From the IMG/VR virus record IMGVR_UViG_3300042881_004038, positions 1 through 24,407 of that record: 24,407 bases of DNA. The stretch is one strand, 5' to 3'. Shown here one piece after another: positions 1,133-21,336 of this stretch. Each line of letters starts with the position of its first letter. The first letter of the stretch is position 1. Source of the DNA: a virus. The notes under the pieces are model-generated. The model was not told where the DNA came from. It saw nothing but the letters and a program-made list of their open reading frames with translations, and searched no databases. Made by a program: the position numbers and the translations under genes.

Positions 1133-1782
1133 TGAAACTTGAAAAGATAGAGAAGAAGGTAAATGCTCTCGCTGAAAATTGGGTGGGCAAAAAACACGTC
1201 CCTTCTATTATTCGATCTTTGAACGCAGCCTTCAAACGAAATATCGTTTGTTTCTCTTCCGAACGATTTGAGGGCGAATATTTCAAAGACCATAATGTGA
1301 TTGTCAATGCACATTATTGTGGCAGGATATCTAACTTCATCCCTGAACACATATACATTGAATTACACTTTCCCAAAAGACAGAAAAAGGTTCATCTCAC
1401 TAAAGTTAGTGCCAAAAACCTAGCATTAAAGATTATTCGCGCGATTCATCATGAGTATCGCCATAAGCATCAACAGCAAAAACGACCTCTTTTATTACAA
1501 AAAGAATACAAGCCTAGACCGAAACAGAATAAGATGAAGGCGATGTATTATGGAAATCCAGACGAAATCGACGCTCATGCCTATGAAACTCAGGCTGAAC
1601 GAATTGATATAAATAAACTTCGAACAGCGCATAAAATTGGCTGGCAAGATTCTGAAGCCATCTTTATGTATCGAAAGACTTTCCGAAATCAAGATCCGAG
1701 AGTCTGGAAAAGATTCTTGAAAAAGGTTTATAAACTAAATGAAAAAATTCAGAGAATACCTGAAGGAACAAGAAACCCATAG
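1132..1782 (+). CDS. HExxH zincin-like protein, function unknown
   Basis: A 216-residue basic protein. Residues 107-111 read HEYRH, the zinc-binding core of zincin metallopeptidases (two histidines bind zinc, the glutamate activates water). About 34 residues downstream is NPDEIDAHAYE, with E145 a plausible third ligand, as in gluzincins. The C-terminus is rich in Lys/Arg. It is translationally coupled to the helicase through TAATG, and its last 44 bases overlap the next gene in another frame. No signal peptide or membrane segment is visible, so any activity would be inside the cell or the virion. The substrate is unknown. A zincin-fold protein without peptidase activity is also possible. Confidence 0.72.
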   Translation: MKLEKIEKKVNALAENWVGKKHVPSIIRSLNAAFKRNIVCFSSERFEGEYFKDHNVIVNAHYCGRISNFIPEHIYIELHFPKRQKKVHLTKVSAKNLALKIIRAIHHEYRHKHQQQKRPLLLQKEYKPRPKQNKMKAMYYGNPDEIDAHAYETQAERIDINKLRTAHKIGWQDSEAIFMYRKTFRNQDPRVWKRFLKKVYKLNEKIQRIPEGTRNP

Positions 1783-2134
1783 CAGCATTCAAGACTTCAT
1801 GGGTTACTGCAAAGACAATTTAGGTATTGCGGAACTCCCAAAACTCGTAATTATTGACAATCGCGATACAGCGAGAGAGAATACGAGTTTCGGTGGTTAC
1901 TCTCCAAGTGAAAGAGTTATTCATCTAAACATCGCAGGACGTCATCTTGCTGACGTTCTACGCACATTGGGACATGAACTAGTCCACCACAAACAGAACG
2001 AAGATGGTGTACTACATAGTTATGCAGGTGAGACAGGCAGCGAGTTTGAAAACGAAGCAAACAGCAAGGCTGGTGTCATCATGAGAAATTATGGTAAATC
2101 AAATCCTGCAATTTATGAGGAAGTTGAATTGTAA
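1739..2134 (+). CDS. Small metallopeptidase-like protein with capsid-targeting-like N-terminus
   Basis: A 131-residue protein with two visible parts. Residues 1-10 (MKKFREYLKE) resemble the T4 internal-protein capsid-targeting peptide MKTYQEFIAE, which ends in a prohead protease site. The rest holds HELVHH, with H79-E80-L-V-H83 as the zincin HExxH, and FENEAN downstream, where E106 could be the third zinc ligand. The start overlaps the previous gene by 44 bases. This is long for phage overlaps, but the ATG start is favoured because the targeting-like peptide begins exactly there. It is the second HExxH gene in a row. Inferred role: a small protease packaged in the head and delivered to the host, or acting during head maturation. 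The fold call rests on the motif and spacing only. Confidence 0.75.
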   Translation: MKKFREYLKEQETHSSIQDFMGYCKDNLGIAELPKLVIIDNRDTARENTSFGGYSPSERVIHLNIAGRHLADVLRTLGHELVHHKQNEDGVLHSYAGETGSEFENEANSKAGVIMRNYGKSNPAIYEEVEL

Positions 2135-2144
2135 TTGAGGTTTT

Positions 2145-3095
2145 ATGACTACATTTGTGACTGGTGGTTTGGGATTTATTGGTTCTAATTTTGTAATCTC
2201 TCACCTACAAAAATATCCTTCTGATGAGGTTGTCATTCTCGACAACTTCTCATACGCTGCAAATGGCAGCAATCTAAATGGTTTCTATGACGACTGGCGA
2301 CTTAATATCAAAAAAGTCGACATTCGGAATCTTGAATTCTTAGACCACATGTATCATGACTATGAACCAGACATTACGTTTCATTTTGCTGCTGAGTCTC
2401 ATGTTGACAATTCTATTACTGGGGACGATGATTTCCTCAGCACTAATGTTAATGGCACTCATAACATTCTAAAGTGTATTCGCAAGTATGGTGGTAAACT
2501 TGTTCACGTTTCAACTGATGAAGTCTATGGAAGTTTAAATTCAGAAGATCCTTCGTTCACTGAAACAACTCCGTACGATCCACGCAATCCATACTCTGCA
2601 ACCAAAGCAGCCAGCGATCATCTCGTTCGTGCTTATGTAAACACACATAAGATTGATGCAGTTGTTACCAATTGCTCAAACAACTATGGTCCTCGCCAGC
2701 ATACTGAGAAATTTATTCCAACGATCATTCGCAATATTAAAAACAATACACCAATTCCAGTCTACGGCACTGGAACAAACATTCGTGATTGGTTGTTTGT
2801 TGAAGATCATTGTGAGGCATTACTCGCAATTGGTCAGAATTTTAAATCTGGTGAACGTTACAACATTGGCGGTGGTCATGAGATCACTAACTTAGAAATG
2901 GTAACATTGATTCTTGACTTAATGGGTAAACCAGTTCACATGTATCAAAACTGGATTAATTTTGTAAATGATCGTAAGGGTCATGATTTTAGATATTCTA
3001 TGAATTCGGATAAAATCTTCAAGGAACTTGGTTGGTCCGCAAAGACCAAGATCGTCCAAGGACTGGAGAAAACTTTGGAGTGGTATAATGCGTAA
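2145..3095 (+). CDS. rmlB: dTDP-glucose 4,6-dehydratase-like (RmlB)
   Basis: An extended short-chain dehydrogenase/reductase that would convert dTDP-glucose to dTDP-4-keto-6-deoxyglucose using bound NAD. The Rossmann motif GGLGFIGS is at residues 7-14. TDEVYG (T124, D125, E126) carries the Asp-Glu pair typical of 4,6-dehydratases. The catalytic YSATK has Y150 and K154. NNYGPRQ and the C-terminal INFVNDRKGHDFRY segment are characteristic of RmlB. At 316 residues it is somewhat shorter than bacterial RmlB (about 340-360). It opens a tight sugar operon, and its stop overlaps the next start by 8 bases. The dTDP preference is inferred from the RmlA neighbour. Confidence 0.9.
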   Translation: MTTFVTGGLGFIGSNFVISHLQKYPSDEVVILDNFSYAANGSNLNGFYDDWRLNIKKVDIRNLEFLDHMYHDYEPDITFHFAAESHVDNSITGDDDFLSTNVNGTHNILKCIRKYGGKLVHVSTDEVYGSLNSEDPSFTETTPYDPRNPYSATKAASDHLVRAYVNTHKIDAVVTNCSNNYGPRQHTEKFIPTIIRNIKNNTPIPVYGTGTNIRDWLFVEDHCEALLAIGQNFKSGERYNIGGGHEITNLEMVTLILDLMGKPVHMYQNWINFVNDRKGHDFRYSMNSDKIFKELGWSAKTKIVQGLEKTLEWYNA

Positions 3096-3963
3096 AGGGA
3101 TTATTTTATCAGGTGGATTAGGTACACGCCTCTATCCATGCACAAAGGTTATTTCAAAACAGTTATTGCCTGTTTATGACAAGCCATTGGTCTATTATCC
3201 AATTTCTACATTGATGCTTGCTGGCATTCGTGATATTATGATTATTACATCGCCAGCTGATCGCGCACCATTTGAGAAACTTATTGGTGATGGATCTCAG
3301 TGGGGATTGAATATTGTTTATGAAACTCAGTTGCAACCAAGAGGAATTGCTGAATGTTTCCGCATTGCAGCAAAATGGATTGATGATGATGAAGTCACTC
3401 TGATTCTCGGTGACAATATTTTCTATGGTAATGAATTGATCAATCGTTTCAATGCCGCAAAAAACAATCATGTTGGTTGCACAGTTTTCGCCTACCATGT
3501 CGCGGACCCTGAACGGTTTGGAGTGGTAGAATTAGATAATGATGGAAACCCAATTCGAATTGTCGAAAAGCCTAAATTTGCTCCAAGTAATTATGCTGTC
3601 ACTGGGCTTTACTTTTATGACAATAATGTAGTAGAATATGCCTGGAGGATCTCACCTTCTGCAAGAGGAGAATTGGAGATTACTGACATCAACAATCTTT
3701 ATATGCAAAACAATGATTGCAAGATTGAGTATTTGAATCGTGGTATTGCTTGGATTGACACAGGTACATTTGAGTCTCTCTCAGAAGCATCTGTATTTGT
3801 TGGTTCAGTGCAAAAGAGAACAGGTATGATGATTGCATGCCCTGAAGAAATCGCATACAAGAATGCATGGATTACAGAGCATGATGTTCGTAGTGCCGCT
3901 GAGAAGTATAGTAAATCAGATTATGGTAAATATCTTGGACAAATCTTGAGGATGAAAGTATGA
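3088..3963 (+). CDS. rmlA: Glucose-1-phosphate thymidylyltransferase (RmlA)
   Basis: Activates glucose-1-phosphate with dTTP to give dTDP-glucose, the substrate of the preceding gene. The N-terminus shows the nucleotide-binding GGLGTRLYP (G9-P17), followed by KQLLPVYDKP. LGDNIFYG, VEKPKFAPSNYAVTGLYFYD and the C-terminal QKRTGMMIACPEEIAY are all RmlA hallmarks. The length of 291 residues is typical. The ATG at 3088 was chosen because the family N-terminus starts there and GGAG lies just upstream; a longer in-frame ATG at 3028 would add 20 unrelated residues inside rmlB. It overlaps both neighbours (ATGCGTAA upstream, ATGA downstream), indicating translational coupling. Confidence 0.95.
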   Translation: MRKGIILSGGLGTRLYPCTKVISKQLLPVYDKPLVYYPISTLMLAGIRDIMIITSPADRAPFEKLIGDGSQWGLNIVYETQLQPRGIAECFRIAAKWIDDDEVTLILGDNIFYGNELINRFNAAKNNHVGCTVFAYHVADPERFGVVELDNDGNPIRIVEKPKFAPSNYAVTGLYFYDNNVVEYAWRISPSARGELEITDINNLYMQNNDCKIEYLNRGIAWIDTGTFESLSEASVFVGSVQKRTGMMIACPEEIAYKNAWITEHDVRSAAEKYSKSDYGKYLGQILRMKV

Positions 3964-5255
3964 GTGATGTGAAGCAAATGATTGAAGATTTGGTTGCCGC
4001 TGTTGGTACACCAAAGTATGCATACAATTGCAAAGAGTTCAATCCTGAGAAAGATACCGTATTCTATTCTGGTCCATATTGGGATGAGAAAGAAGTCATT
4101 GCTGGTGTCACTGCATTTCTAACAGGTAAGTGGCTCGTCTCTGGCGAGAATGTTGCGAAGTTCCAATGGGCATTCTGTCGCAAATTCAATGTGAAGCATG
4201 CTCACATGGTCAACTCTGGTTCCTCTGCCAATTTGACAATGGTTGCAGCACTCAAGAAGCATCTGAACTTGGAAGATGGCGTTGAGGTTCTTGTATCACC
4301 TGTCGGATTCCCGACGACTATTGCACCACTCGTTCAGAATAATCTAAAACCAGTGTTTGTAGACATTGAAATGGACACTCTTAATTTCGATCTTGATAAA
4401 CTTGAAGAAAAGATTACAGAACGTACAGCCGCTATTTTCGTTTCACCAGTGCTCGGCAATCCTCCTGATATGGATCGCATTAAAGAAATCTGTGATAAAC
4501 ATGATCTTCTTTTAATTGGTGATAACTGCGATTCACTTGGCACTCGTTGGGATGGTAAACTTCTTACGGACTATTACTATGCGTGGACAACATCTTTCTA
4601 TCCTGCTCACCACATTTCGACAGGCGAAGGCGGGATGGTTTGCTCAGACGACGAACAACTCATCAACACTGCTCGCAGCATTAGCTGGTGGGGTCGTGAT
4701 TGCCGTTGCGTCGGTGCTGCTAATCTATTGGCTTGTGGAACATGTGGTAATCGCTTTGATAAATGGCTTGAAGGATATAATGGAATAATTGATCACAAGT
4801 ATCTCTTCTCAAACATGGGATTCAATCTCAAGCCACTTGATCTTCAAGGTGCGATTGGTATTGAGCAGTTGAAGAAAATAGATGAGATTGATGTGAAGCG
4901 TCGTTTGAATTTCGAGCGCATCAAGAGCATCTTCTATCGTTCCGTTCCTGGTGTTCGCGTTGCCTCTGCTCTGGATAAGGCAGATCCTTCTTGGTTCGGT
5001 GTGCCGTTGATCACTGATACACCTGAACTCAAGGAAAAACTCCAAGCCTTCTGCGAAGCAAATCGTATTCAGACTCGCAACTACTTTGCTGGAAATATTC
5101 TGTTGCATCCTGGTTACAAACATCTTGACGATGCTTCGAAGTATCCAAATGCGAACAAGGCATTGAGTAACGTGTTCTTTGTTGGTTGCCCTCCACACTA
5201 TGGCGAAGATGTATTTGCCTATTACGAAAGCGTGTTTGCAAAATGGCAATCGTAA
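3960..5255 (+). CDS. RfbH/E1-like 4-keto-6-deoxyhexose 3-dehydratase (DegT family, PMP, Fe-S)
   Basis: A 431-residue aspartate-aminotransferase-fold protein of the DegT/DnrJ/EryC1/StrS family. The Lys that normally binds PLP is replaced by histidine (H217, in SFYPAHHIS), as in the CDP-sugar 3-dehydratase E1 (RfbH/DdhC), which uses PMP to remove the C3 hydroxyl. The cysteines also fit E1: C190 (DNCDSLG), then exactly 57 residues to C248, one to C250, and C259 after eight more (C262 is nearby). Known E1 enzymes use C-X57-C-X1-C-X7-C to hold a [2Fe-2S] cluster. Predicted product: a nucleotide-linked 4-keto-3,6-dideoxyhexose. GAGGATG upstream makes a good ribosome site. E1 needs an electron-donating reductase; none is encoded in the window. 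The substrate nucleotide is probably dTDP here because RmlA is next door, which is unusual for this family. Confidence 0.88.
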   Translation: MSDVKQMIEDLVAAVGTPKYAYNCKEFNPEKDTVFYSGPYWDEKEVIAGVTAFLTGKWLVSGENVAKFQWAFCRKFNVKHAHMVNSGSSANLTMVAALKKHLNLEDGVEVLVSPVGFPTTIAPLVQNNLKPVFVDIEMDTLNFDLDKLEEKITERTAAIFVSPVLGNPPDMDRIKEICDKHDLLLIGDNCDSLGTRWDGKLLTDYYYAWTTSFYPAHHISTGEGGMVCSDDEQLINTARSISWWGRDCRCVGAANLLACGTCGNRFDKWLEGYNGIIDHKYLFSNMGFNLKPLDLQGAIGIEQLKKIDEIDVKRRLNFERIKSIFYRSVPGVRVASALDKADPSWFGVPLITDTPELKEKLQAFCEANRIQTRNYFAGNILLHPGYKHLDDASKYPNANKALSNVFFVGCPPHYGEDVFAYYESVFAKWQS

Positions 5256-6148
5256 ACGTTTTTGGGGGATATGGTTTTGTCGGAAGTGAATACTGTAACG
5301 TTGCCAAAGGCTGGATCAAAAATTACAGGGATAATTACGAAGTACGGAGTGCAAATTGCGTTTACTTTATTAGTACCGTTGACAACTATAATGTACACGT
5401 CGATTCTCTCTTGGATATTAATACTAATCTCGTTGTCTTGATGAAAGTCCTCGATAACTATCGAGACTATATAAAACGAACTGGTGAACAAGGAGTGTTC
5501 AACTTCATGAGTTCCTGGTTTGTCTATGGACAAGACTCTGGATTTAGTGGTGGTCATCCATCACAAATTGGCAATGGACCGCGAGGAATTCCCGAAACCG
5601 ATCCATGTGAGCCAAAAGGTTTTTATTCCATCACGAAGAGATGCGCCGAGCAGTTATTGATGTCCTACTGCGAGACGTTTGGACTTCAATATCGAATTTT
5701 AAGGCTCGCAAATGTATTGGGTAAACAAGATAAAAAGGTATCTGCGAAAAAGAACGCTCTCCAATACTTACTGGCGGAGATCGCGTCCAATCGACCAGTG
5801 GATCTCTATGATAGTGGGTATTTTTATCGTGATTATATTGATGTTCGCGATTGCGCTCGAGCAATCGATCTCGTTGTTCAACGAGGAGAAATTAACTCAA
5901 TCTACAACATCGGAAATGGGAGACCAATAATCTTCCGAGACATTATTCGATACGCTCGAGATTCAATGGATTCGGCTTCTGAACTCCGCACTATAGAACA
6001 GAAAGAGTTTCACAAGAAAGTCCAATCCTCTCGTTCTTTCTTCATGGATAATACCAAACTTGAATCCCTGGGGTACAGACCGCAATACACGATTCAAGAA
6101 ACCGTCGACGACATTATTTACGGAATACTAACTGGTAAAAATAACTAA
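5243..6148 (+). CDS. Extended SDR: nucleotide-sugar epimerase or 4-ketoreductase
   Basis: A 301-residue NAD(P)-dependent extended SDR. The Rossmann motif GGYGFVGS begins at G8, a catalytic YSITK (Y128, K132) is present, and FYRDYIDVRDCARAI plus YNIGNGRP near the C-terminus match sugar epimerases and reductases. It is the last gene of the sugar operon. By context it would reduce or epimerise the 4-keto-3,6-dideoxyhexose made by the RfbH-like enzyme, as abequose or paratose synthases do; this step is inferred. The start at ATG 5243 (13-base overlap with the previous gene) is preferred because it puts the nucleotide-binding strand at the very N-terminus, as the family requires. Longer in-frame starts add residues encoded entirely within the upstream gene. 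Confidence 0.85.
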   Translation: MAIVNVFGGYGFVGSEYCNVAKGWIKNYRDNYEVRSANCVYFISTVDNYNVHVDSLLDINTNLVVLMKVLDNYRDYIKRTGEQGVFNFMSSWFVYGQDSGFSGGHPSQIGNGPRGIPETDPCEPKGFYSITKRCAEQLLMSYCETFGLQYRILRLANVLGKQDKKVSAKKNALQYLLAEIASNRPVDLYDSGYFYRDYIDVRDCARAIDLVVQRGEINSIYNIGNGRPIIFRDIIRYARDSMDSASELRTIEQKEFHKKVQSSRSFFMDNTKLESLGYRPQYTIQETVDDIIYGILTGKNN

Positions 6149-6183: not shown

Positions 6184-7530
6184 ATGCTACGATTTAGCCA
6201 ATATCTCACTGAAGCCGCAAAATTCGAAACCGAAGACATTAATGGCGGACACCTTGAACACGTTGAAGATCTTCCGATTAAACACGGAAAAGAAGGTGTA
6301 GATCTATCTCTAAATTTCTTAGATAACATTCACAAGTATCTAAAAGGAGAACCATCAGCTGCTAAAGTTTCTGTCAAACACGACGGTGCTCCAGCGATGG
6401 TTTTCGGTCGCCTACCAAACAAGAATGCTAAGAATAGCGGATATGCTCCTGGTCAATTCTTCGTTGCCACAAAATCTGCATTTAATAAAACAACTCAGAA
6501 GTTAATCACTTCTCCAGAGGATGTGCAGACACACTTTGGCGACCGCCCAGAACTTGCATCTAAAATGCTCGCTGCTCTAGAGCATCTCCCAAAGGTTACT
6601 CCAATGAAGGGAATCTATCAGGGAGATTTCATGCACACTCCTGATATGGTCAAGCAGGAGGGTGACGATGAGAATGGATATCGCTATTCTCTAAATCCAC
6701 AACTTATTAATTATTCTGCTCCAGCTGATTCTAAACTTGGGCAAAAGATTGCTCAATCTAAATTCGGAATCGTGGTTCATACTGCATACCCAAGCGCATC
6801 ATGGAAGCCGCATTCTAAGACTGGACAGATGATGCTTTCATTCCCAAAGAGACAATTTAATGTTCCTTTGAGATCATTTGGAAAACACTCAGACGTACAT
6901 GTCATTGATCCACGTTCAACAGCACCAAATCCAGAAAACTATGGATCAGATGCTCAGGCTGCTTATGACCGAGCAGTGAAGCAAGTTAAGATTATGTCTG
7001 AGAAACATGATTTCAATCATGCTATTCCTCATGCTGAACATCTATCAACTTATGTGAATGACACAGTTAAGACAGGTGCTCCTTCTACATACGAAGGTCT
7101 TGTTGACCATATTACTCAAAAATTCAATAGACAAATTGAAAATCCAAAGAACGCAAAGAAAGCACCAACCATCACTCAAAAGCGCGATGAGATTTTAAAT
7201 GATCTTAACATGAACTCTGTAAAGTGGAGACAAACTTTAAGAATTCATCAAGCTCTTACAGATGCAAAGAATGCATTGCTCCCATCACTTGATGCAAATG
7301 CTGTTAATAACTCTAACCTAATGCAAGGATCTATTAGCGATCCTGACACTGGAGAGAATGTAAATTCACAGGAAGGTCATGTTGTTGTAATGTCAAATCC
7401 AGAAACAGGAAATGACGTTCCAGTTAAGTTTATTGACCGTCCAAATTTCAGCAGACTTAATTTCAATCGCGGAAGATTCCAGAAACAACAAGCTGCTCAA
7501 CCAGAGCAAGAAGTTGAAGTTCAACAATAA
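6184..7530 (+). CDS. Ligase-like covalent nucleotidyltransferase candidate with capsid-targeting-like N-terminus
   Basis: A 448-residue protein; I think it belongs to a phage family catalogued as a domain of unknown function (possibly DUF6267). Residues 1-10 (MLRFSQYLTE, then AA) match the T4 capsid-targeting peptide pattern. The body shows, in order, motifs like those of ATP-dependent DNA/RNA ligases and capping enzymes: KHDG at 65-68 (motif I KxDG, K65 the possible adenylated lysine), QGDFMH from 146 (motif III-like), FGIVVHTAY from 194 (IIIa-like), EGHVVV from 397 (motif IV EGxVx) and PVKFID with K415 (motif V). The 200-residue gap between IIIa and IV is long and largely helical in look. 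The C-terminus is Gln-rich. It follows a putative late promoter. Inference: an RNA/DNA ligase-like enzyme carried in the head. The motif order is seen; activity is not proven. Confidence 0.6.
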   Translation: MLRFSQYLTEAAKFETEDINGGHLEHVEDLPIKHGKEGVDLSLNFLDNIHKYLKGEPSAAKVSVKHDGAPAMVFGRLPNKNAKNSGYAPGQFFVATKSAFNKTTQKLITSPEDVQTHFGDRPELASKMLAALEHLPKVTPMKGIYQGDFMHTPDMVKQEGDDENGYRYSLNPQLINYSAPADSKLGQKIAQSKFGIVVHTAYPSASWKPHSKTGQMMLSFPKRQFNVPLRSFGKHSDVHVIDPRSTAPNPENYGSDAQAAYDRAVKQVKIMSEKHDFNHAIPHAEHLSTYVNDTVKTGAPSTYEGLVDHITQKFNRQIENPKNAKKAPTITQKRDEILNDLNMNSVKWRQTLRIHQALTDAKNALLPSLDANAVNNSNLMQGSISDPDTGENVNSQEGHVVVMSNPETGNDVPVKFIDRPNFSRLNFNRGRFQKQQAAQPEQEVEVQQ

Positions 7531-7546
7531 GAGATAAGAGAAAACT

Positions 7547-8341
7547 ATGACAGCATATACACCACCAAAATGGGAAGATGTCAAGGACAAAGTCGCTGGC
7601 AAAGAAAGTTACGACTATGATACCATTGCATATGACAGACTTAACAAAGATGGATCAAAAAGAAATCTAGCAGGTATTGTTGCACCTAAACCAATCTCTC
7701 AAATGACGATTGGTGAGTTGAACGACTGGCAAGAATCCGAAATGAGAAATAAGTCTCGTGCTTACGGACTAAACATTCCAAGCCGTCAAGAAGAATTGCG
7801 TCGTCAGGGATTCAAAGGTGATCCAGGTAGCACAGGCGTTGGTCGTTATCAGTTTGAAAAAAGCACATTGATTGATACTGCAAAAAGTCTCTATGGTGAT
7901 AGTTATAGAGATGTTGTTTTCAATTCAGACGAACAAGAAAAACTCGCAAAGCATCTCTATACAAGAGCTGCTGCACGTGGACCAGAGGCATTAGGAAATA
8001 CGTGGCATGCATTGCGTGGTATCGGCAAGGGTGCATCATCAACAGTTTCTGCTCCAGCACCTATCGTAGCAGCTGCTGCAACTGGTGTCGTTGGTAGTGT
8101 ATTAGGCGGTGGTTCACCTGTAGAATCTAAAACAGACGACATTGGAACATTGGGACAGTATAGAGGAAAATTTGCTCTTCATTCTTCCAGAGACAAACTA
8201 AAAAGAAAATTGGCTCTGATGAGAAATAAATTAAATAAAAACCTTCCTGCTATGGCTGAAGGTGTGCGATTTAAAGATTTCAGAAAAAACATTTATGAAC
8301 AAATCATTATGAATGAATCTCTAGAAAAAGAGGACAAATAA
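7547..8341 (+). CDS. Lysozyme/transglycosylase-like virion protein
   Basis: A 264-residue protein whose N-terminal 150 residues resemble a phage lysozyme-fold muramidase. GKESYDYDTIAY offers E20 as the likely catalytic glutamate. GVGRYQFEKSTL (from G97) is the typical GxYQ..P/S.TL segment of lysozyme-like domains, and FNSDEQEKLAKHLY follows. After an Ala/Gly-rich linker (about 160-195) comes DIGTLGQYRG, a module also found in the 17270 gene. The C-terminus carries RFKDFRKNIYEQ, which looks like the capsid-targeting peptides of neighbours but sits at the end. No signal peptide is present. Since the window has a separate endolysin, this is more likely a structural or injected wall-degrading protein than the lysis enzyme. 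The catalytic call is moderate. Confidence 0.65.
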   Translation: MTAYTPPKWEDVKDKVAGKESYDYDTIAYDRLNKDGSKRNLAGIVAPKPISQMTIGELNDWQESEMRNKSRAYGLNIPSRQEELRRQGFKGDPGSTGVGRYQFEKSTLIDTAKSLYGDSYRDVVFNSDEQEKLAKHLYTRAAARGPEALGNTWHALRGIGKGASSTVSAPAPIVAAAATGVVGSVLGGGSPVESKTDDIGTLGQYRGKFALHSSRDKLKRKLALMRNKLNKNLPAMAEGVRFKDFRKNIYEQIIMNESLEKEDK

Positions 8342-8345
8342 TATT

Positions 8346-9953
8346 ATGAGTGAGAAAGAAGTAAAATCTCATGCAATGTTGGTTGGTGGATTCTCACCAT
8401 TCACTAAAGGACATGACGAAAATGTAAATCAGATGAAGTCTGGTGAACATACCAGCGTTAATGTCTTTACAACGCAATCTGCTCGCCGTCCAATCTCAGC
8501 AGAAAAGAAAGTCGAGTACATTAAAACTGCAGTTGGATCAGATGTAAACGTAGACACAACAGTCACTCCATTACATGCTGCATCTCAAGTTTATTCCTCT
8601 GGTAAAAGAGGAAAGTTAGTTATTTACGGTGGATCTGATCGTTCTTCAATTGCAGATCGCATCCGTGATTATAACAATAAAGAAGGTAAACACGGATTCT
8701 ATAAATTCGATGATATCGAATTCAAGCAAGTTGGCGGCGAAAGAAAGCAAGGGGCAAAAGGACTTGCTGGCATTTCTGGAACAGCAGCACGCAATGCAAA
8801 GAATCCTCGTGAACTCAAGAAGTTTCTTCCAAAAGCATTACACCCACATGCCGAAGATATCTTTAAAGAACTAAAAGAAGAAGTATGTCCAACAGCATTC
8901 TTTCTTATTGGTGGTCCAGGAAGTGGAAAGGATTTTGTTCTCAAGAATACTTTTGCCAAATATGACTTGATGGAAGTACAGATTGATCAGGTTCTAAATG
9001 GAACTGCAAATCAATTGTTCGAAGAAAAGAAAAATCTTGTCATCAATGGACCAATTGATGAAGGAAAGATCGAAGAAATTAAGTCACTACACGAAGATTA
9101 TAATTTCGATACAATCTATGTTTCGGTTACAAATAAGGTCAGCCGTCAACGCAACGAACAACGCGAAAATCCATTGCACGAGTCAAAGAGAATTCAAAAG
9201 TTATTAAACACAGAAAAGCTCGTTGAGTCTCTAGACGATGTATTTGTTTTTAACAATTCAATGAACTTCAATGCTGCAAGCGCATTTGAGAAACTAATCT
9301 TCGAAGATCAGACCGTGAAACTTGAGAGTAGAATTCAAGGTCATGGTATCAATCCTGTTGAAACACCTGAACTCAGATCATTCACTGTAATCACAGAAAG
9401 ATTTAAGAATCGTGTTGCAAAGGATAAAGAATCTGGTCTACCAAAGAAGTATGTTGCTGGACTAAGTTCATCAACTGCAAAGGCTCGCGCAAAACACTGG
9501 AAAGAAAAAGAAAAGTATTCAGATCGTGATTCACGCGCCTATGAACCAGCTCCAGGTGATGCTACAGCTGAAACCAAACCAAGCAAGCACACATTGGCAA
9601 TTCGGAAAGCGATGGATGAAGGAATCGACTTCAACAAGCCAATTCCACCAGTCGTAGATCCAAGAAAAAATCGTGTTGCTCGTACAGGTAACATTACGGC
9701 TGTGATGCAAAAACGTAGTATTCTAAAGAGAATGCAGTCACTTAAAGAAGCAACAAATTACAATCTTAAAGATCTAATTGATACAACAAAATCAATTACT
9801 AATCAATTGTCTATTCCTACAAATAGACTAACAAATGTATCAGAAAATAAAGCAGTCTATTATGAAAACAATGTGTTGTGGGAAGCCGTCAAGCATCCAT
9901 CCTCACAACGCTGGTATCTAACTGGAAATTATAACGAGAGCAACAATGAGTGA
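8346..9953 (+). CDS. Cytidylyltransferase-like domain fused to a P-loop kinase-like domain
   Basis: A 535-residue, multi-domain protein. Residues 10-175 form an HxGH-superfamily nucleotidylyltransferase: GGFSPFTKGHDENV (T20, H23), YGGSDRSSI and GISGTAARN, the counterpart of the ISxTxxR motif of NadM/cytidylyltransferase enzymes. A second domain begins at once with FFLIGGPGSGKD (Walker A at 189-196, K195), like small-molecule or nucleoside kinases. A third segment contains LPKKYVAGLSSSTAKARAKHW, a short conserved phage module (perhaps DUF5872, from memory). The tail has EATNYNLKDLI. LKEEV at residues 176-180 lies exactly between the first two domains and resembles a prohead-protease cleavage site. 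Coupled cofactor or nucleotide metabolism is possible; the substrate cannot be read from the sequence. It overlaps the next gene by 8 bases. Confidence 0.78.
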   Translation: MSEKEVKSHAMLVGGFSPFTKGHDENVNQMKSGEHTSVNVFTTQSARRPISAEKKVEYIKTAVGSDVNVDTTVTPLHAASQVYSSGKRGKLVIYGGSDRSSIADRIRDYNNKEGKHGFYKFDDIEFKQVGGERKQGAKGLAGISGTAARNAKNPRELKKFLPKALHPHAEDIFKELKEEVCPTAFFLIGGPGSGKDFVLKNTFAKYDLMEVQIDQVLNGTANQLFEEKKNLVINGPIDEGKIEEIKSLHEDYNFDTIYVSVTNKVSRQRNEQRENPLHESKRIQKLLNTEKLVESLDDVFVFNNSMNFNAASAFEKLIFEDQTVKLESRIQGHGINPVETPELRSFTVITERFKNRVAKDKESGLPKKYVAGLSSSTAKARAKHWKEKEKYSDRDSRAYEPAPGDATAETKPSKHTLAIRKAMDEGIDFNKPIPPVVDPRKNRVARTGNITAVMQKRSILKRMQSLKEATNYNLKDLIDTTKSITNQLSIPTNRLTNVSENKAVYYENNVLWEAVKHPSSQRWYLTGNYNESNNE

Positions 9954-12243: not shown

Positions 12244-12263
12244 ACCCATACGAACAAAAAAAC

Positions 12264-12270: not shown

Positions 12271-12275
12271 ATGAT

Positions 12276-12515
12276 ATGTTCCTGCGCACATTCTCAAAGG
12301 ATGTACTGAGTGAAGAACTCGTTTGGCATAGGGATCATAATGACAGAATCGTAGAGGTTCTAGAAGGAGAAAACTGGGAAATCCAGTTTGAAAATCAACT
12401 CCCACAGACCCTCAAAGTCGGTGAGGAATATGTAATACCAGCATATACCTATCATCGAATTAAACGTGGAACGACAGATTTAGTAGTTAAAATTCAAGAA
12501 AATCTTGAGGGTTAA
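12276..12515 (+). CDS. Small cupin-like protein
   Basis: A 79-residue protein that looks like a minimal cupin. ELVWHRDHNDRIVEVLEG, GENWEIQFEN and GEEYVIPAYTYHRI follow the order of the two cupin motifs, with H/E residues that could bind a metal (WHRDH and YHRI). Such very small cupins recur in T4-like phages, but their function is not established. The ATG at 12276 is favoured because the conserved part begins directly after it (MFLRTFSKDV). A GTG at 12234, which has an AGGG upstream and overlaps the previous gene by 10 bases, would add 14 residues and is a real alternative. No Shine-Dalgarno is seen before 12276. Confidence 0.65.
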   Translation: MFLRTFSKDVLSEELVWHRDHNDRIVEVLEGENWEIQFENQLPQTLKVGEEYVIPAYTYHRIKRGTTDLVVKIQENLEG

Positions 12516-12517
12516 AG

Positions 12518-14542: not shown

Positions 14543-15461
14543 GACAGATAATTTATATTCAGAAGTTGTGATCAATGAATCACCTTTCTACTATGATGAA
14601 AATGGTAGACTACGTGCGCGTGTTCTTTCTGAAGAAAGTATTCGTGGAGAAAAGAAAGAAGAAGTCAAAATGATCCCAACACCAGAAAAGGAAAAGGAAC
14701 CAGTCATGCGTACTGCAGACTTCCAAGACCGTGACGGTAGCGGAACAGATGACAGAGATGAAAAACCAGAAGAAGTCAAGAAACGTATTGATGCTGGTGG
14801 CGGTAAAAAAATCCCAGTTCCTGAAAAACCAAATAAAGGCAAAGGACTCAAAGGTTTATTTGGTGGCGTAAAGCGTGGTATCGTTCCACAGAAAGGCGCT
14901 GTAAAGGGTCCAGGCAGAAATATCAATTCTCGTGAAGGATTGCGTGGAGTTGATGCTGCATTGGCTCGTGGCGCAGAATTGAAGAAGCGCGGAAAAGAAG
15001 TTCTTGCAAAAACTGCAGAACTCCGCAGCCAATTAGGTGTCAAACGCGATGAAGCTGGTAAAGCCGAGAAGAAAGGAATTAAGGCTGATATTCGCGCACT
15101 CAAAGATGAGAAGCGTTCAATGAAAGCTGCTGGTGAGAAGCCAGCTCCAGAAATGAAGAGAACACTCAAAGACATGCGCGCAAAATTGAAGTCCATGCCA
15201 AAGGGTGCACAACGCGCTATACCAGCTGCACAACGCGCTATACCAGCAAGAGGTAAGATGGTTGGACGTGGACGTCTAGAGATGCAAGAATCAGTTCTAG
15301 CCACAGATTATCTTGAAGAAAAGATGAATCTAAAGACTGCAAAGATGGGTGATGTAATCAAAGACTTTCAAGAGTCAGATGCACCACAGTTCGAGGGTAA
15401 GTCAAAGGCAAAGCGTCGTATCATGGCAATCGCTGCAAAGTTACAGGCAGAAAGAGGCTAA
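14535..15461 (+). CDS. Basic coiled-coil head protein candidate
   Basis: A 308-residue, strongly Lys/Arg-rich protein. Near the N-terminus is SPFYYDENGRLR, a module repeated in the next gene (SPYYYDNTGRLR). A long charged helix (about 150-220, AELKKRGKEVLAKTAELRSQ and after) is predicted to be coiled coil. AQRAIPA occurs twice in tandem at the end of it. The C-terminal GDVIKDFQESDAPQFEGKSK, then KRRIMAIAAKLQA, is a module conserved at the ends of T4-like marine phage virion proteins. The ATG at 14535 with CGGAGA upstream is preferred over a TTG at 14517. Composition suits binding to DNA or to the head scaffold. Function is unassigned. Confidence 0.7.
   Translation: MIKTDNLYSEVVINESPFYYDENGRLRARVLSEESIRGEKKEEVKMIPTPEKEKEPVMRTADFQDRDGSGTDDRDEKPEEVKKRIDAGGGKKIPVPEKPNKGKGLKGLFGGVKRGIVPQKGAVKGPGRNINSREGLRGVDAALARGAELKKRGKEVLAKTAELRSQLGVKRDEAGKAEKKGIKADIRALKDEKRSMKAAGEKPAPEMKRTLKDMRAKLKSMPKGAQRAIPAAQRAIPARGKMVGRGRLEMQESVLATDYLEEKMNLKTAKMGDVIKDFQESDAPQFEGKSKAKRRIMAIAAKLQAERG
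15207..15248 (+). repeat. 21-bp tandem duplication (two copies)
   Basis: Two adjacent 21-base copies (15207-15227, 15228-15248) encode AQRAIPA twice. They differ only at the last base, so the duplication is probably recent. It is in frame and lengthens the linker before the C-terminal module. Confidence 0.9.
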
Positions 15462-15464
15462 ATA
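15458..15464 (+). promoter_or_regulatory. Possible late promoter box (CTAAATA)
   Basis: The third junction copy of CTAAATA, overlapping the stop of the previous gene and 39 bases before the next ATG, the same layout as at 6145. The 42-base gap here is one of the largest in the window, which fits a promoter. An AGGAA ribosome site follows at about 15491. Confidence 0.42.
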
Positions 15465-15503
15465 ACTTTATTGATCTAACCAACACGTATTAGGAATAAC
15501 ACA

Positions 15504-17270
15504 ATGATCAACGATAACGAAAAATCAATTAATGAAGAAGAATCAGTGAATCCAACTGTGCAGGCAGTCATGGCTGCGCTTAATGGATCAGCTGGTGCTG
15601 ATGTTGGTAGAGTTGCAAGAATGGTTGCTGCAAAACAAGAAGCAGCAAAAGCTCTTGCAAATAAGAAAGAAGAAGAAGAGGCTCGCGCAGCTCTTGCTGG
15701 CAAAGTTTCTGATGAAACTGCAGAAAAACTTATTCAAAAGGGTAAGGATGATGCAGCAAACAGAGCAGCTCGTGCTATGATGAACGAATCTTTCGAAGAA
15801 ACTGGTGAGATCGTTATCGACATCGTTGAAGAAAATGGAAAGATTGTTGAGTTAGATAATGGTATTCTCTTCATTGAAGAAGATATCCCATTCATCGACG
15901 TAGTTGAGAAGTATTATGGTGCTGATTACATCGATGATGTGATCAATGAAGCCGTAACACAACAAAAGAAAACAGCTCCTGTGAAGGCAAAAGCACCAGC
16001 AAAAGCACCTGTTAAGGCTGCTGTAAAGGCTCCAGCAAAGGCTCCTGCCAAGGCTCCTGCCAAGGCTCCAGCTCCAGTAAATATGATGGCTTCTCAGAAA
16101 CCAAAAGGTGTTGTTGCAGCTGCTGCAAAACCAAAGGCTCCAGCAAAGCCAACTGGTGCAGCAAAAACAACAAATACGAAAACAACACCAAAGAAAACGA
16201 CAGCAAAATCCCCAACTCCTGCTCAAATTAGAGCAGGTGCTGATGCTCCTCCAAGTAAAACTGCTTCAAGTGTTACACAAAGAGCAAAACAAACAAAATT
16301 AGACACAGGTAATCTTGATCAAGCAATCGGCGATCAGTTAAAAGCAACTGATAAAGTTATTGCAGATAAAACAAAATCAGATATCGCTTCAATGAAGCCA
16401 GGACAAGTAAAGCAAAGTTTCTTGTCTAAGATTACTGGTGGTCGTCTCGGTAAGACAACATACACACCAGGAGACACTGGAACTCTAGGAGATTTTGGTA
16501 AGGACTTCACAAAGAAGATTTCTGACACTGCTGCAGATATTGCAAAAGAAAGAGAATTGAAACGTGGTGATTATAACGTAGGTGGTGGTGCAAGTGAACC
16601 ACAAAAAGGCACTGCTGCATTCCCAGGAGATAAGGATTATGATGATTCAGACGCATCAAGTTCAGGTCGCTCACAATCCTCTTCTGGTGCCGCACCAGCG
16701 GCTGGCGATCAACCATCAGGTGGTCGCGGATTGATTCCTATTCGATTCCGTCTTGACGGTCAAGAAATAAAACAAAGTGCTTATAAGAAGGCAAGACAGT
16801 CAGGCGAAGTTGAAAGTCAAGACGTTACATTCAATGTAAGAAATAAAAAGACTGGACAAGTTCGTCAAATTCGAAAAGGTGATGCAGAATATGATGCCTA
16901 TTATTCTGGTTACAAGAAGATGGGTCGTGCAGTTACTGAAGCATTGCTCCGTATGGGCGCAGTTCTTACAGAAGAAGGCTGGATGCTTGGCGACGAACTT
17001 CTAGAATCTGTATACACAGAATATGCTCCAGTTGAAATGAGATCACCATACTATTATGATAACACTGGTCGCTTGAGAATTATGACAGAATCAGAGTGGA
17101 CAGAACTCGGACTTGCAGAAGTTATTCTTGAAAGAGTAATTTCAGAAGCAATGGACGATGTTGGTTCAGAAGATGAAGACGTCGACAACGACGGCGATTC
17201 AGATAGCAGCGACGACTATCTAAAGAATAGAAGAGAAAAGATTGCTGCTGCAATTAAGGGTAAGAAATAA
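15504..17270 (+). CDS. Modular head-type protein with Ala/Lys/Pro tract and EF-hand-like loop
   Basis: A 588-residue protein. The N-terminal 150 residues are helical and acidic, with VIDIVEENGKIVELDNGILF a likely beta unit. Residues about 160-190 are an AKAP-type Ala/Lys/Pro repeat like the tails of histone H1, which may bind DNA electrostatically. TGTLGDFGKDF, KQSAYKKARQSGEVES and SPYYYDNTGRLR are short modules, the last shared with the previous gene. Near the C-terminus DVDNDGDSDSSDDYLKNRR (bases 17179 onward) has the DxDxDG order of EF-hand or dockerin calcium loops and recurs in T4-like phage proteins. INEAV, VTEAL and ISEAM could be prohead-protease sites. The TAATG junction couples it to the next gene. 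Probable virion or head-core component. Confidence 0.7.
   Translation: MINDNEKSINEEESVNPTVQAVMAALNGSAGADVGRVARMVAAKQEAAKALANKKEEEEARAALAGKVSDETAEKLIQKGKDDAANRAARAMMNESFEETGEIVIDIVEENGKIVELDNGILFIEEDIPFIDVVEKYYGADYIDDVINEAVTQQKKTAPVKAKAPAKAPVKAAVKAPAKAPAKAPAKAPAPVNMMASQKPKGVVAAAAKPKAPAKPTGAAKTTNTKTTPKKTTAKSPTPAQIRAGADAPPSKTASSVTQRAKQTKLDTGNLDQAIGDQLKATDKVIADKTKSDIASMKPGQVKQSFLSKITGGRLGKTTYTPGDTGTLGDFGKDFTKKISDTAADIAKERELKRGDYNVGGGASEPQKGTAAFPGDKDYDDSDASSSGRSQSSSGAAPAAGDQPSGGRGLIPIRFRLDGQEIKQSAYKKARQSGEVESQDVTFNVRNKKTGQVRQIRKGDAEYDAYYSGYKKMGRAVTEALLRMGAVLTEEGWMLGDELLESVYTEYAPVEMRSPYYYDNTGRLRIMTESEWTELGLAEVILERVISEAMDDVGSEDEDVDNDGDSDSSDDYLKNRREKIAAAIKGKK
15976..16077 (+). repeat. Degenerate Ala/Lys/Pro-coding repeat tract
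   Basis: About 100 bases of imperfect 12-base units of the form GCTCCNGCNAAG encode alternating Pro-Ala-Lys-Ala. They are arranged in frame as a flexible basic linker. A similar but shorter Ala/Pro/Lys linker joins the two domains of the endolysin at about 22635-22695. Confidence 0.75.
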
Positions 17271-18565
17271 TGAAGCACATCGTAACGGTAACAACTTCAA
17301 ATCCTGCGCATGAGCATGTCTCGCTTCGCCGCAGACAATCAACCACAAACTATATGGTTGAAGCAAGAAATGAAGATGAAGCACTTCTTCGTGCAACTGC
17401 TCACTTCCGTGGATTAGGTCACTACATCCACGAAGCAAAGATCTTTAAAAAAAAAGATGAGCAGTTGATTGAAGGGGCTGCAGCATTAAAGCGACCCTTC
17501 AATAAAGAAACAAATATTGGCTCAGTTGTTCCTGGAAGTTCCAAGAACGTTGGAACAGCCACACAACAAGTTGCTTCAAATCAATATTTCGATGTAACGA
17601 CTGGTAAGACGGTCACGCGCACCACTCAAAATGATATTGAGTGGGAAAAAGAAAAGCGTGACGCTCACACTCGCAATCTCATGGCTACCGACAAGCCAAT
17701 TGAACCACTTTTTCCTGAACTAGATATTCTCGGTGGCGTTACTAGAGCTGGAGCATCAATCCTCTCTATGATTAGAGGCGCAGCTGTTCCAAGACCATCA
17801 AGAACTCCACGAAGAACACCACGAAGAACACCAGCCAGACCACCAAGCCGTCCACAACGTCGTCGTCCTTCTGTGCCAACTCCAAATCCACAGGAGAAAC
17901 CAGTTAAAACTCCAAAGAAACCAGGTGAAGTTGTTCCGTTTCCTACAAAACCTGCTCCAGCTCCAGCACCTGTGCCGCCAGCAAAACCTGGTCCAGCACC
18001 TGCTCCAGCGCCAGCACCTGTGACATTGCCACCTGCTAAACCATCAACACCAGCTCCTGCTCCTTTGCCACCAGCAAAGCCAGCTCCAGCACCACAACCA
18101 AAACCTGCTCCAGCTCCAGCACCACAACCTGGTAAGTCACCATCACCACAACCAGTACCTGTGCCTAAAAAGTCACCTGTTGGTAAAACACCATCCTCAC
18201 CACCAGTGACTCGACCATCACCAATAGCAGGTCCAAAATCTGATCCACGTCAATTACCTGCGCCACGCGGTGGACCGCCACGCGGTGGACCGCCACGCGG
18301 TGGAAAGCCACGTCGTCCATTCGCACTTCCAAGACTAAGATTGGGTGATCGTCCAGATCAGGACATTGGAACATTAGGTCAATATCGCGGAATGTTCCCA
18401 TTGTATCAATTTGCTGATTTCAATTCTCTTCAAGAGAATCAAGTAAAGCCAATGAATGCCATTGGTCGAGTGATGACAAAGAGAAAAGAAAAAAGTAAAG
18501 AAAATGCCGAGGCTGAGAAAAACAAAATAAATATGGAACCAACTCTAAAGAGTGAAAAAAATTAA
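17270..18565 (+). CDS. Proline-rich virion-type protein with DIGTLGQYRG module
   Basis: A 431-residue protein. The first 60 residues form a compact domain (HIVTVTTSNPAHEHVSLRRR, then EALLRATAHFRGLGHYIHEA). A long Pro/Ala/Lys-rich region (about 175-345) follows, built from APAPAPxPPAKP units and a PRGGP triplicate; it should be extended and flexible. Then comes DIGTLGQYRGMFPLY, the same module as in the 7547 lysozyme-like protein, and a Lys/Glu-rich tail. An A9 run at 17447-17455 lies between the first domain and the linker and could be a slippage site, though the frame is intact without it. No catalytic motif is seen. Probably a virion protein; function unknown. Confidence 0.68.
   Translation: MKHIVTVTTSNPAHEHVSLRRRQSTTNYMVEARNEDEALLRATAHFRGLGHYIHEAKIFKKKDEQLIEGAAALKRPFNKETNIGSVVPGSSKNVGTATQQVASNQYFDVTTGKTVTRTTQNDIEWEKEKRDAHTRNLMATDKPIEPLFPELDILGGVTRAGASILSMIRGAAVPRPSRTPRRTPRRTPARPPSRPQRRRPSVPTPNPQEKPVKTPKKPGEVVPFPTKPAPAPAPVPPAKPGPAPAPAPAPVTLPPAKPSTPAPAPLPPAKPAPAPQPKPAPAPAPQPGKSPSPQPVPVPKKSPVGKTPSSPPVTRPSPIAGPKSDPRQLPAPRGGPPRGGPPRGGKPRRPFALPRLRLGDRPDQDIGTLGQYRGMFPLYQFADFNSLQENQVKPMNAIGRVMTKRKEKSKENAEAEKNKINMEPTLKSEKN
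18263..18302 (+). repeat. 15-bp tandem repeat (about 2.7 copies)
   Basis: The unit ccacgcggtggaccg occurs twice perfectly, followed by a partial third copy (ccacgcggtgga). It encodes PRGGP units, giving a basic Pro/Gly turn-rich linker. Near-perfect identity suggests recent slippage. Confidence 0.88.
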
Positions 18566-18579: not shown

Positions 18580-19065
18580 ATGCAAACGTTTAAAACATTC
18601 ATCAATGAACAAGCACAAATGGATCCACTCTTTCTAGAAGTGGATAAAAGCATGATTGAAAACAATAAGGATGCTATGAATGCCGATTTTGATCGCCTCA
18701 CAGCTGCACCATATCAAAATTCAATCGTGTTTTACAATCAACTTCGCGGAACACTTGAGAGATACGGTATTCTCATTCCTCCAGGTGCCACAAGACATTT
18801 CCTAAACTTCGATTCTGAACTCTCATTTCAATTAGGCGATAGCGGATTGTATCTTTATGTTGTATTCAATACACACAAGAATGCTAAAGTCGAAGGATAT
18901 GTTCAAGTCGTTGATGAAGCAGAATTAAACAATCTTATGAATTCAGATGAAGAAGTTCCTCGTGAAGATGAAGAAGAGGGTGAAGAAAAAGAAGAAATGG
19001 AAGATGATGAAGAAGAAATGAGTTATGGCGAAAAGTATCGTAAAAGAATGGACGATGACGGCTGA
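18580..19065 (+). CDS. Small protein with capsid-targeting-like N-terminus and acidic tail
   Basis: A 161-residue protein. The first ten residues, MQTFKTFINE followed by QA, are the best match in the window to the T4 internal-protein targeting peptide MKTYQEFIAE, with a prohead-protease-type site (I-N-E) at the end. The middle (about 20-115) is a mixed alpha/beta domain I do not recognise (LERYGILIPPGATRHFLNFD). The last 40 residues are almost entirely Glu and Asp, apart from a short basic end (KYRKRM). An acidic tail could mimic nucleic acid or contact the scaffold; both are inference. A clear AGGAG site lies 8 bases before the ATG. Confidence 0.75.
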   Translation: MQTFKTFINEQAQMDPLFLEVDKSMIENNKDAMNADFDRLTAAPYQNSIVFYNQLRGTLERYGILIPPGATRHFLNFDSELSFQLGDSGLYLYVVFNTHKNAKVEGYVQVVDEAELNNLMNSDEEVPREDEEEGEEKEEMEDDEEEMSYGEKYRKRMDDDG

Positions 19066-19076
19066 TAAAGAATATT

Positions 19077-19466: not shown

Positions 19467-20204
19467 ATGAAAGAAATCAACGAATCTAAAAAATCCCGCG
19501 AAGAAAAACAAATAGCAGCGCGCACCAGAGCGCAAGGTATTTCTCAAAGTGCTGCGGAAAATAAACAAATGCAGCGTGCAAGAATGGCTGCAGATGTTGC
19601 CACCAAAAACGAAAAATATGCACGAAAACAATCGGCAAATGAAAGAGCTGCAAAAGCTGACCAGCGACAAAATCAAGAAGCATCAACTCAAACTTACTGG
19701 AGAGATGATGATGGCAACTTCCGTGTTGGTGGTGCAAAATATGCAGTGGCTGCAGCAAAGAATGTAAACCTAACTAAACATCAGCTCTTTTCTAAAAGTC
19801 AACAATTAGACGATACAGAAAAGAAAATTTTACAAGCTGCACAAGCTGCAGCTGCAAGTAAAGTTCAAGAAGAAGCACCAGCAAATGCAATGGGTACTGC
19901 AGGAATTAGCGGAGCAGACACAGCTGTCGATGTGGGTATTGCTGGTCGCGACATGCTTTTATCTCCTGGAATTCTTCGTCGCCCACCACCAAAGATGTTT
20001 GGTGGCAAAAGAGTATTCACAGTTCCAAGCGGCGACTATTATAAAGCAACTCTTGGAAGAAAGAAAGGTCAACATTGGCGTTCAATGGTCAATGGTCCAC
20101 TTGGCGAAGAAATTCGTCAATATGCACTCGAAAACAAAGAAGCACCAATCATTGTCGAAGATGAAATAACTGGTGCCATGATGTATCTAAGATATGGAAA
20201 GTAA
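19467..20204 (+). CDS. Conserved phage virion-associated hypothetical protein
   Basis: A 245-residue protein. The N-terminal 75 residues are a charged, helical, Lys/Glu/Gln-rich segment (probable coiled coil) beginning MKEINESKKS, where I-N-E-S looks like a prohead-protease site. An Ala-rich stretch and APANAMGTAGI follow. The C-terminal 60 residues (RVFTVPSGDYYKATLGRKKG, then HWRSMVNGPLGEEIRQYA, ending TGAMMYLRYGK) form a well-conserved domain that I recall from T4-like phages as an unnamed family. The start abuts the preceding stop. Function is unknown. Confidence 0.72.
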   Translation: MKEINESKKSREEKQIAARTRAQGISQSAAENKQMQRARMAADVATKNEKYARKQSANERAAKADQRQNQEASTQTYWRDDDGNFRVGGAKYAVAAAKNVNLTKHQLFSKSQQLDDTEKKILQAAQAAAASKVQEEAPANAMGTAGISGADTAVDVGIAGRDMLLSPGILRRPPPKMFGGKRVFTVPSGDYYKATLGRKKGQHWRSMVNGPLGEEIRQYALENKEAPIIVEDEITGAMMYLRYGK

Positions 20205-20205
20205 C

Positions 20206-21336
20206 ATGCATAACATATTAACATTCTCTACTTTTTTATCCGAAGGTGCTGCTAGATTAAGTGCTAAGACAGCTGCTCTTAAAGGTCCATTGCACGAATT
20301 GCTTGTTGGTAAGCATTTAAATCAGGGAAATTTTCCAGAAGATTATCGCGTGGAAGGAAAGAAACCAGAAGATATCCACCACGATTATGCAACACAAGTA
20401 TTTGGCAAGAATTATAAGAATAATGCCGAGTATAAGAGTATGCACAGCGCTGCATCTGATGTTGCATCAAAATTTAATAAGTTTGTGGGTGCTAAATCAC
20501 ACCATAGAGTTGCTTGGACATCACAACCTGCAGACCATGAAAAAGAAACAGGCGTGAAAGATTCATTGAGTAAGGCTGACTTAATTGTGACGAAGGGTGG
20601 AAAGGGTTCCACTGATCACACGAAAAGATCTAAGATGGCTGTCAGCATCAAATACTCATCTCCAGAAAGCGGTAAGAAAACTAAAACAAACTGGGCAAAT
20701 CATGGTCAGAAAACACTTGAGAGATTCTCTGGTGCAGATTTAAATGACTTACCAGAAAAAGAAGCACACAAGAAACTATTGGCATCGCATAAAATTAAAA
20801 ATAGAGGCGATTATAGAGAAATTAGAGATGCAGGCAAAACTAATTTAATTGATAAGATCGATGCAAGTCATCGTACAATGTCACAAACAGTAGCCAAGAA
20901 ATATGCTGAGGGTTTAAGCAAACGCTACCATGCTAAGAATCCAATACACCAAGATGAACACTTGAAGTCATTCATCAAACGCAGTATTGGTGCAGTTGGT
21001 CATACAGAAGGTGGTGACGTTGAAGCAGGAAAAACACACTTACCTCATATTATTGTAAAAACCACGCGCAATAATGATGCAAGCCACGATCATCACGTTA
21101 CAGACGTTGAATCTCACGTTCACAATTACTTGTCGCATTTTAAAAACCTAAAGGTTGAACACAAAGATGGTTCAACTGGAGTAGTTGTGACTGGCGAGCA
21201 TAAAAATACAAGCAAAAGAATGGAAGTGCATAGAACTCAAATTTATGGCGACCAGGCTACTGCAAATTATAGAACATCAACCACATTGGGTGCGGAAGAC
21301 CATAAAGATATCGATACAACAAAACATATTAAATGA
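20206..21336 (+). CDS. Capsid-targeting-like protein with possible restriction-endonuclease fold
   Basis: A 376-residue basic, His-rich protein. The ATG at 20206 has GGAAAG four bases upstream and follows the previous stop; an in-frame ATG at 20194 would add four residues. The N-terminus MHNILTFSTFLSEGAAR fits the capsid-targeting pattern with a cleavage site after LSE. The next 150 residues could be a PD-(D/E)xK-like nuclease: GPLHELLVGKHL (E31), KADLIVTKGG (D125) and MAVSIKYSS (K149), but the usual acidic residue two before the lysine is Ser here (S147). The rest contains HxH clusters such as ASHDHHVTDVESHVH. The nuclease assignment is tentative; the targeting peptide is clearer. It may act on host or competitor DNA after injection. 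Confidence 0.65.
   Translation: MHNILTFSTFLSEGAARLSAKTAALKGPLHELLVGKHLNQGNFPEDYRVEGKKPEDIHHDYATQVFGKNYKNNAEYKSMHSAASDVASKFNKFVGAKSHHRVAWTSQPADHEKETGVKDSLSKADLIVTKGGKGSTDHTKRSKMAVSIKYSSPESGKKTKTNWANHGQKTLERFSGADLNDLPEKEAHKKLLASHKIKNRGDYREIRDAGKTNLIDKIDASHRTMSQTVAKKYAEGLSKRYHAKNPIHQDEHLKSFIKRSIGAVGHTEGGDVEAGKTHLPHIIVKTTRNNDASHDHHVTDVESHVHNYLSHFKNLKVEHKDGSTGVVVTGEHKNTSKRMEVHRTQIYGDQATANYRTSTTLGAEDHKDIDTTKHIK

Follow-up and report, generated by a model that had tools for sequence, protein, structure and literature searches.

A probable T4-type capsid-targeting leader on four unrelated proteins of an uncultured virus

Four proteins encoded by an uncultured virus (IMG/VR record IMGVR_UViG_3300042881_004038; the window analysed here is the entire virus record of 24,407 bases) start with variants of one short peptide, which is very likely a T4-type capsid-targeting sequence (CTS), i.e. 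a leader on head-packaged proteins that is cut off by a gp21-type protease. Packaging has support from sequence and from one published proteome, that of cyanophage S-CREM2; core binding, cutting and injection would follow by analogy with T4. The signal itself is already known from T4; in the literature searched, no report was found of the leader on marine phage enzymes, or of its use to explain enzymes in cyanophage virions. The leaders and the bodies behind them are as follows.

1739..1768, + strand: leader 1, MKKFREYLKE then Q; profile score 15.5, p=0.00011; predicted cut after Glu10
1769..2134, + strand: body 1, small zincin-like protein with HELVH; phrog_87 metallo-protease, E=2.4e-5
6184..6213, + strand: leader 2, MLRFSQYLTE then A; profile score 8.6, p=0.00077; predicted cut after Glu10
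6214..7530, + strand: body 2, DUF6267, ligase-like nucleotidyltransferase; PF19782, E=4.5e-67; K65-x-D67-G68; model predicted local distance difference test (pLDDT) score 86.2
18580..18609, + strand: leader 3, MQTFKTFINE then Q; profile score 17.5, p=0.00011; predicted cut after Glu10
18610..19065, + strand: body 3, acidic protein; no family match
20206..20244, + strand: leader 4, MHNILTFSTFLSE then G; profile score 11.4, p=0.00033; predicted cut after Glu13
20245..21336, + strand: body 4, of a 376-residue leader protein, earlier called a possible nuclease; no family match

The original prediction that one peptide heads these four proteins was borne out, all four leaders being found in place and ranking as the top four starts among window genes by position profile (each p <= 0.00077), with a wide gap to the next start (-4.8). 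No fifth leader start was identified by profile within the window genes. The profile derives from 91 different leaders on other viral contigs, retrieved with a pattern (M K x F x x F) that fits none of the window's four, and its p values refer to 9130 internal Met windows of ten T4-like genomes. A loose regular expression matched 4/25 called window genes (0/150 internal Met in the window) and a strict one 3/25, missing the start at 20206 (0/150 internal Met; Fisher 0.0026). Across the ten T4-like genomes the strict expression matched 21/2475 N-termini versus 9/9295 internal Met (Fisher 1.1e-8); for three non-T4 phages the count was 0/236 N-termini. Genes of whole phage genomes were called with a simple script, except for S-CREM2 (219 annotated coding sequences); as a positive control, the T4 internal proteins IPII and IPIII were recovered by the leader scans.

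Aromatic residues occupy positions 4 (F/F/F/F) and 7 (Y/Y/F/F) of leaders 1 to 4, and each leader ends in an L/I-x-E site (LKE, LTE, INE and LSE), a match at which cleavage is predicted. In leader 4 (MHNILTFSTFLSE) three extra residues precede the core, shifting the core positions by three. A further ATG lies 12 bases upstream in the same open reading frame (ORF), at 20194, and would add MESN; GGAAAG directly before the ATG at 20206 makes the latter the better start. A DNA-level repeat or recent copying was considered and rejected, as the four leader DNAs match at just 13 to 19 of 30 bases in pairwise comparisons.

In T4 IPIII the first 10 residues are the required part, with a role of residues 4 and 7 in targeting and of residues 8 and 10 in processing, which follows the rule L/I-x-E (PMC9026906). 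Exactly these positions are conserved in the window leaders. In seven comparisons of the four genes with orthologs, the leaders are 80 to 100% identical in amino acids, with up to three synonymous changes each, and replacements are confined to position 3, 5 or 6, leaving 4, 7, 8 and 10 unchanged. Leader 1 has identical amino acids in three relatives (1, 0 and 3 synonymous codon changes), leader 2 differs in two relatives at position 3 or 5 only, and leader 4 is identical in its L298 ortholog (3 synonymous codon changes). Leader 3 is 80% identical to its L298 ortholog (positions 3 and 6 differ); in the acidic protein behind it identity falls to 40% over the 20 codons after Glu, which is directly followed by a two-residue gap. 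Alignment of the N-termini across relatives, one of the checks proposed with the original prediction, thus found the leader conserved, and this pattern of change indicates that selection acts on the leader peptide.

The end of the leader also looks like the end of the gp23 propeptide in T4-like phages. A matching L-x-E site is present in gp23 N-terminal regions of 9/10 genomes (Syn9 was left out of this comparison; the cut is inferred outside T4): SFLTE/A, with the slash at the cut, ending at residue 65 in T4, FLSE/A in P-SSM2 and Melnitz, FLTE/T in C48C1, and VLTE/A or similar elsewhere. A gp21-type protease and gp23 are each encoded in 12/12 T4-like phage records and in 0/3 other phages. The protease was also found in 8/16 larger contigs (fragments) from the leader scan and in 1/4 fragments of more distant relatives.

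Proteomic support comes from S-CREM2, in whose virions 52 proteins were detected (PMC10665884 Table 3), set here against all 219 annotated proteins. All four S-CREM2 proteins with a leader at profile p<=0.001 are in the virion list (4/4; hypergeometric 0.0029), as are 5/6 at p<=0.002. With the strict regular expression 5/7 are in the virion (Fisher 0.009; 7.5e-4 without 24 named structural proteins) and with the loose one 5/8 (Fisher 0.020; 0.0018 without the same 24). The five virion leader proteins are an S-adenosylmethionine (SAM) hydrolase, an APH/ChoK-like kinase (annotated start GTG), a cytidylyltransferase and two hypothetical proteins, the three enzymes being also among the four with the best profile scores; in a Cas9-like virion protein the core lies 18 residues in. 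The core is present in 4/6 virion proteins that the S-CREM2 authors call non-structural, the other two being endolysins. S-SZBM1, with a shallower proteome (30 proteins; PMC9146016 Table 1), has its cytidylyltransferase in the virion list, and the small gp191 and gp192 are not listed. The DUF6267 proteins that S-CREM2 and S-SZBM1 encode have no leader, and neither virion list contains them. For S-CREM1, 14 virion proteins are reported (PMC9964418).

Judged by its sequence contexts, the leader is a separable module that is not peculiar to this virus and is carried by dozens of protein types in related phages. A scan of viral contigs for the leader preceded by a ribosome-binding site yielded at least 120 stretches, hence a sample, versus 18 in the full scan for a control pattern with permuted residues. 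Because the census pattern fixed M1, K2, F4, F7 and E10, conservation at these positions within the census cannot count as evidence, a limit that the profile inherits. Among the matches listed (122), 109 stand at the start of an ORF with at least 45 residues, and 13 with a shorter ORF were dropped; minus their first 14 residues, these 109 form 43 BLAST clusters, 34 of them single (single-linkage BLASTP, E 1e-3, with distant kinship between clusters possible). Up to three members per cluster (60/109) were scanned for families, and these representatives, again among the matches listed, include DUF6267 (3), cytidylyltransferase-like proteins (3), SAM lyase (2), ADP-ribosyltransferase (2), zeta-toxin/AAA kinase-like proteins (2) and an acetyltransferase (one weak match).

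Leader-like starts were also noted at two further places. T4 gp61.1 (NC_000866 18966-19130), annotated as hypothetical and located beside gene 61, starts MKTFKEFIKE then D, the top score in the T4 genome (26.6), and may be an unrecognised head protein. In S-CRM01, five consecutive same-strand ORFs at 99847-104425 (L310-L311) have leader-like starts, three at p<=0.00044 and two weaker (p=0.0012 and 0.0015); one of the five is 32% identical to the S-CREM2 virion kinase, and the segment is a possible cargo operon.

Body 2 is the best characterised of the four, and the original description of it as a ligase-like nucleotidyltransferase was upheld by a K-x-D-G motif together with an RNA/DNA-ligase fold. 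The motif (K65-x-D67-G68) is invariant in 32/32 aligned DUF6267 homologs. Structural comparison of the model of the whole leader protein (448 residues) with VIA-align gave a best Z of 9.6 (root-mean-square deviation 3.8, 186 aligned) to Naegleria RNA ligase, a modest value given that unrelated structures often reach Z of 7 to 8, and 8.2 to T4 RNA ligase 2 (Rnl2); all 50 listed rows are ligases or ligase-containing complexes. Foldseek returned no match for this model at E<=0.001, and two weak ribosomal-protein matches of the DUF6267 sequence profile to PDB sequences (E about 0.004) were dismissed as noise. The reading of body 2 as likely ligase-like derives from VIA-align and the K-x-D-G motif. 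The first 21 residues of the model have pLDDT below 50, as expected for a detachable leader. The name DUF6267 is absent from the collection of papers that was searched.

Members of the same family exist with and without the leader. Among 55 distinct DUF6267 proteins 24 carry it, 10 of these having been fetched by the leader; those not fetched in this way have it in 14/45 cases (window's own group 7/7, others 7/38). Eight leaderless members begin right at the conserved domain, where others would be cut, as in P-HM2 (leaderless, MSKNTHLEHLED) compared with MKKFNQFIIE/AKNTHMEHVED (with leader).

No family common to the four bodies was found in Pfam and PHROG scans, and 4/4 proteins thus have a short N-terminal leader on unrelated bodies, as in the CTS type. 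Body 1 belongs to a leader protein of 131 residues; the zincin reading given to it earlier receives weak support from HELVH and the phrog_87 match. Pfam and PDB sequence searches gave no match for it, and the NCBIfam match fell well short of the family cut-off. Body 3 has no Pfam, PHROG or NCBIfam match. For body 4 no family, phage-record or PDB sequence match was obtained, and the nuclease reading given to it earlier gained no support; its model (pLDDT 38.7) is unusable.

Closest to this arrangement are the T4 internal proteins, which likewise begin with a leader of 10 residues (MKTYQEFIAE in IPII and IPIII) ahead of differing bodies; it is aromatic at positions 4 and 7, has I/L at 8 and ends in Glu10. 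T-even internal proteins are described as diverse anti-restriction proteins with the CTS as their sole common part (PMC3012670), and the CTS has been suggested, in general terms, to let T4-like phages pack varied proteins (PMC9026906). However, the T4 proteins are small (about 8, 10 and 20 kDa), whereas the proteins that bear the leader here include a ligase-like one of 448 residues and a zincin-like one, and one and the same body can be found both with and without it. T4 Alt, an ADP-ribosyltransferase, is also a head-packed enzyme trimmed by gp21 (PMC9026906, PMC5694885), although it is described as losing six N-terminal residues plus a C-terminal piece; two of the leader ORFs among the census matches listed match an ADP-ribosyltransferase family. 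In phage P1, the N-terminal 30 residues of DarB send a reporter to the head (PMC9024508), but P1 appears, according to the authors, to lack a separate scaffold gene, and they detected no consensus among Dar N-termini. Cytidylyltransferase or NMNAT-like proteins are reported by mass spectrometry from virions of S-CREM2, S-SZBM1, S-SCSM1 and S-SM1. The published passages tie these enzymes to no packaging signal; leaders were recognised here for S-CREM2 and S-SZBM1 only.

In the proposed mechanism, the aromatics at positions 4 and 7 would bind the leader-carrying protein to the scaffold core inside the prohead, and a gp21-type prohead protease would then cut after the Glu of I/L-x-E, freeing the mature body in the head before DNA packing. 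The body would be expelled into the host along with the genome. The load of this virus would comprise the DUF6267 ligase-like nucleotidyltransferase, the small zincin-like protein, the acidic protein and the 376-residue protein.

Several observations weigh against capsid targeting. The 24-kb record contains no gp21-type protease gene, and gp21 was found in 0/9 fragment contigs of close relatives. Phages with gp21 may have no leaders (P-HM2, 0/221 leader starts; EniLVp02, 0/255 at p<=0.001), which implies that the tag is patchy, and many DUF6267 proteins have a weakened leader that lacks the aromatic at 7 (MLSFKELLNED...), or none. The residue after Glu is Q in 2/4 window leaders, and a semi-tryptic peptide was observed for none of the leaders, cleavage after Glu being inferred. 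Looser cuts dilute the virion link in S-CREM2 (8/12 at p<=0.005, 8/14 at p<=0.01), and if the core may lie at any place within residues 1 to 40, 11 proteins qualify there, of which 7 are in the virion, one of these 7 a baseplate protein. In S-SZBM1 just 1/3 strong-leader proteins are in the virion list. The capsid-targeting part of the original prediction is well supported in that the T4 key positions are kept, gp21 was found in every T4-like record searched for it, the gp23-like site matches and leaders go with virion proteins in S-CREM2; the absence of the protease gene from the record and the S-SZBM1 count do not fit it as well.

One alternative is that the leader does no more than attach proteins to the prohead core, the bodies being parts of the assembly core that are degraded or lost at maturation rather than injected. 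The absence of the small S-SZBM1 leader proteins from the virion list is in its favour; the presence of the S-CREM2 leader enzymes in purified virions is not, and SAM lyase, ADP-ribosyltransferase, cytidylyltransferase and ligase-like bodies seem unneeded by a scaffold, so that this alternative is judged improbable. Lower still is the probability that the leader addresses proteins to some other place (the tail lumen, for instance, or a host factor) and that the S-CREM2 virion enzymes are carry-over from the lysate. The S-CREM2 authors allow for carry-over through high expression and incomplete CsCl separation (PMC10665884), and gp21 occurs without leaders in some phages, as already described. 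Against this, the leader agrees with the head signal of T4 and with the site of the head protease, and the virion lists of S-CREM2 and S-SZBM1 do not include their leaderless DUF6267 proteins, although these may be less highly expressed.

That the likeness reflects chance or convergence on short amphipathic N-termini is scarcely credible. In 13 phage genomes the loose expression does also fit 37/10,266 internal Met, and a non-T4 phage has one N-terminus that fits, but the strict-expression enrichment, the excess of leader stretches over the permuted pattern and conservation at exactly the T4 key positions argue otherwise, and chance was disfavoured by the expression, permuted-pattern and profile comparisons alike. 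A capsid-targeting leader, as described above, remains the preferred reading.

The record, from its size and content, is a genome fragment, and its setting includes two features relevant to its origin and to the leader.

77..1132, + strand: gp41-type replicative helicase; phrog_19, E=1.4e-103; 66.8% identity to Methylophilales phage Melnitz, Kyanoviridae
8346..9953, + strand: cytidyltransferase/kinase-like protein, leaderless (within-genome comparison); phrog_3041, E=5.7e-20; start MSEKEVKSHAM scores -9.7

The identity of the helicase to that of Melnitz places the record with a marine T4-like phage or near relative. A number of relatives of the cytidyltransferase/kinase-like protein have the leader, and the window copy is without it; the ORF preceding it ends RFKDFRKNIYEQIIMNES..., a C-terminus that is loosely leader-like. 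Between the gp41 and DUF6267 genes lie sugar-nucleotide genes (2145-6148): the ORFs at 2145 and 5186, the two of the four in this stretch that the family scan covered, both match nucleotide-sugar epimerases. Several large ORFs with common short motifs are found at 7547-18565, with IGTLGQYRG common to those at 7547 (which matches a head-protein PHROG) and 17270, and SP[FY]YYD..GRLR common to those at 14517 and 15504. Collagen-like G-x-y repeats occur in an open frame (23582-24407) that runs past the end of the record, and the adjoining ORF at 23196 has a weak tail-fibre-assembly match.

Enzymes in cyanophage virions have so far been without a known reason, and a tag that addresses proteins to the head makes the packed set predictable from sequence. 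Tagged proteins would be packed and would therefore probably reach the host before phage genes are expressed, and in the tagged set are families that would suit early takeover or counter-defence (SAM lyase, ADP-ribosyltransferase, kinase-like and cytidylyltransferase-like proteins), plus the ligase-like DUF6267. More tentatively, and with doubt, a DUF6267 ligase-like enzyme in such a head kit would heal nicked phage DNA or host-cut RNA at genome entry, before phage gene expression, and the leader would be, in marine T4-like phages, a freely exchanged tag, gained and lost on dozens of families, that makes for a swappable first-strike kit. The leader may predict which proteins related phages carry and probably inject.

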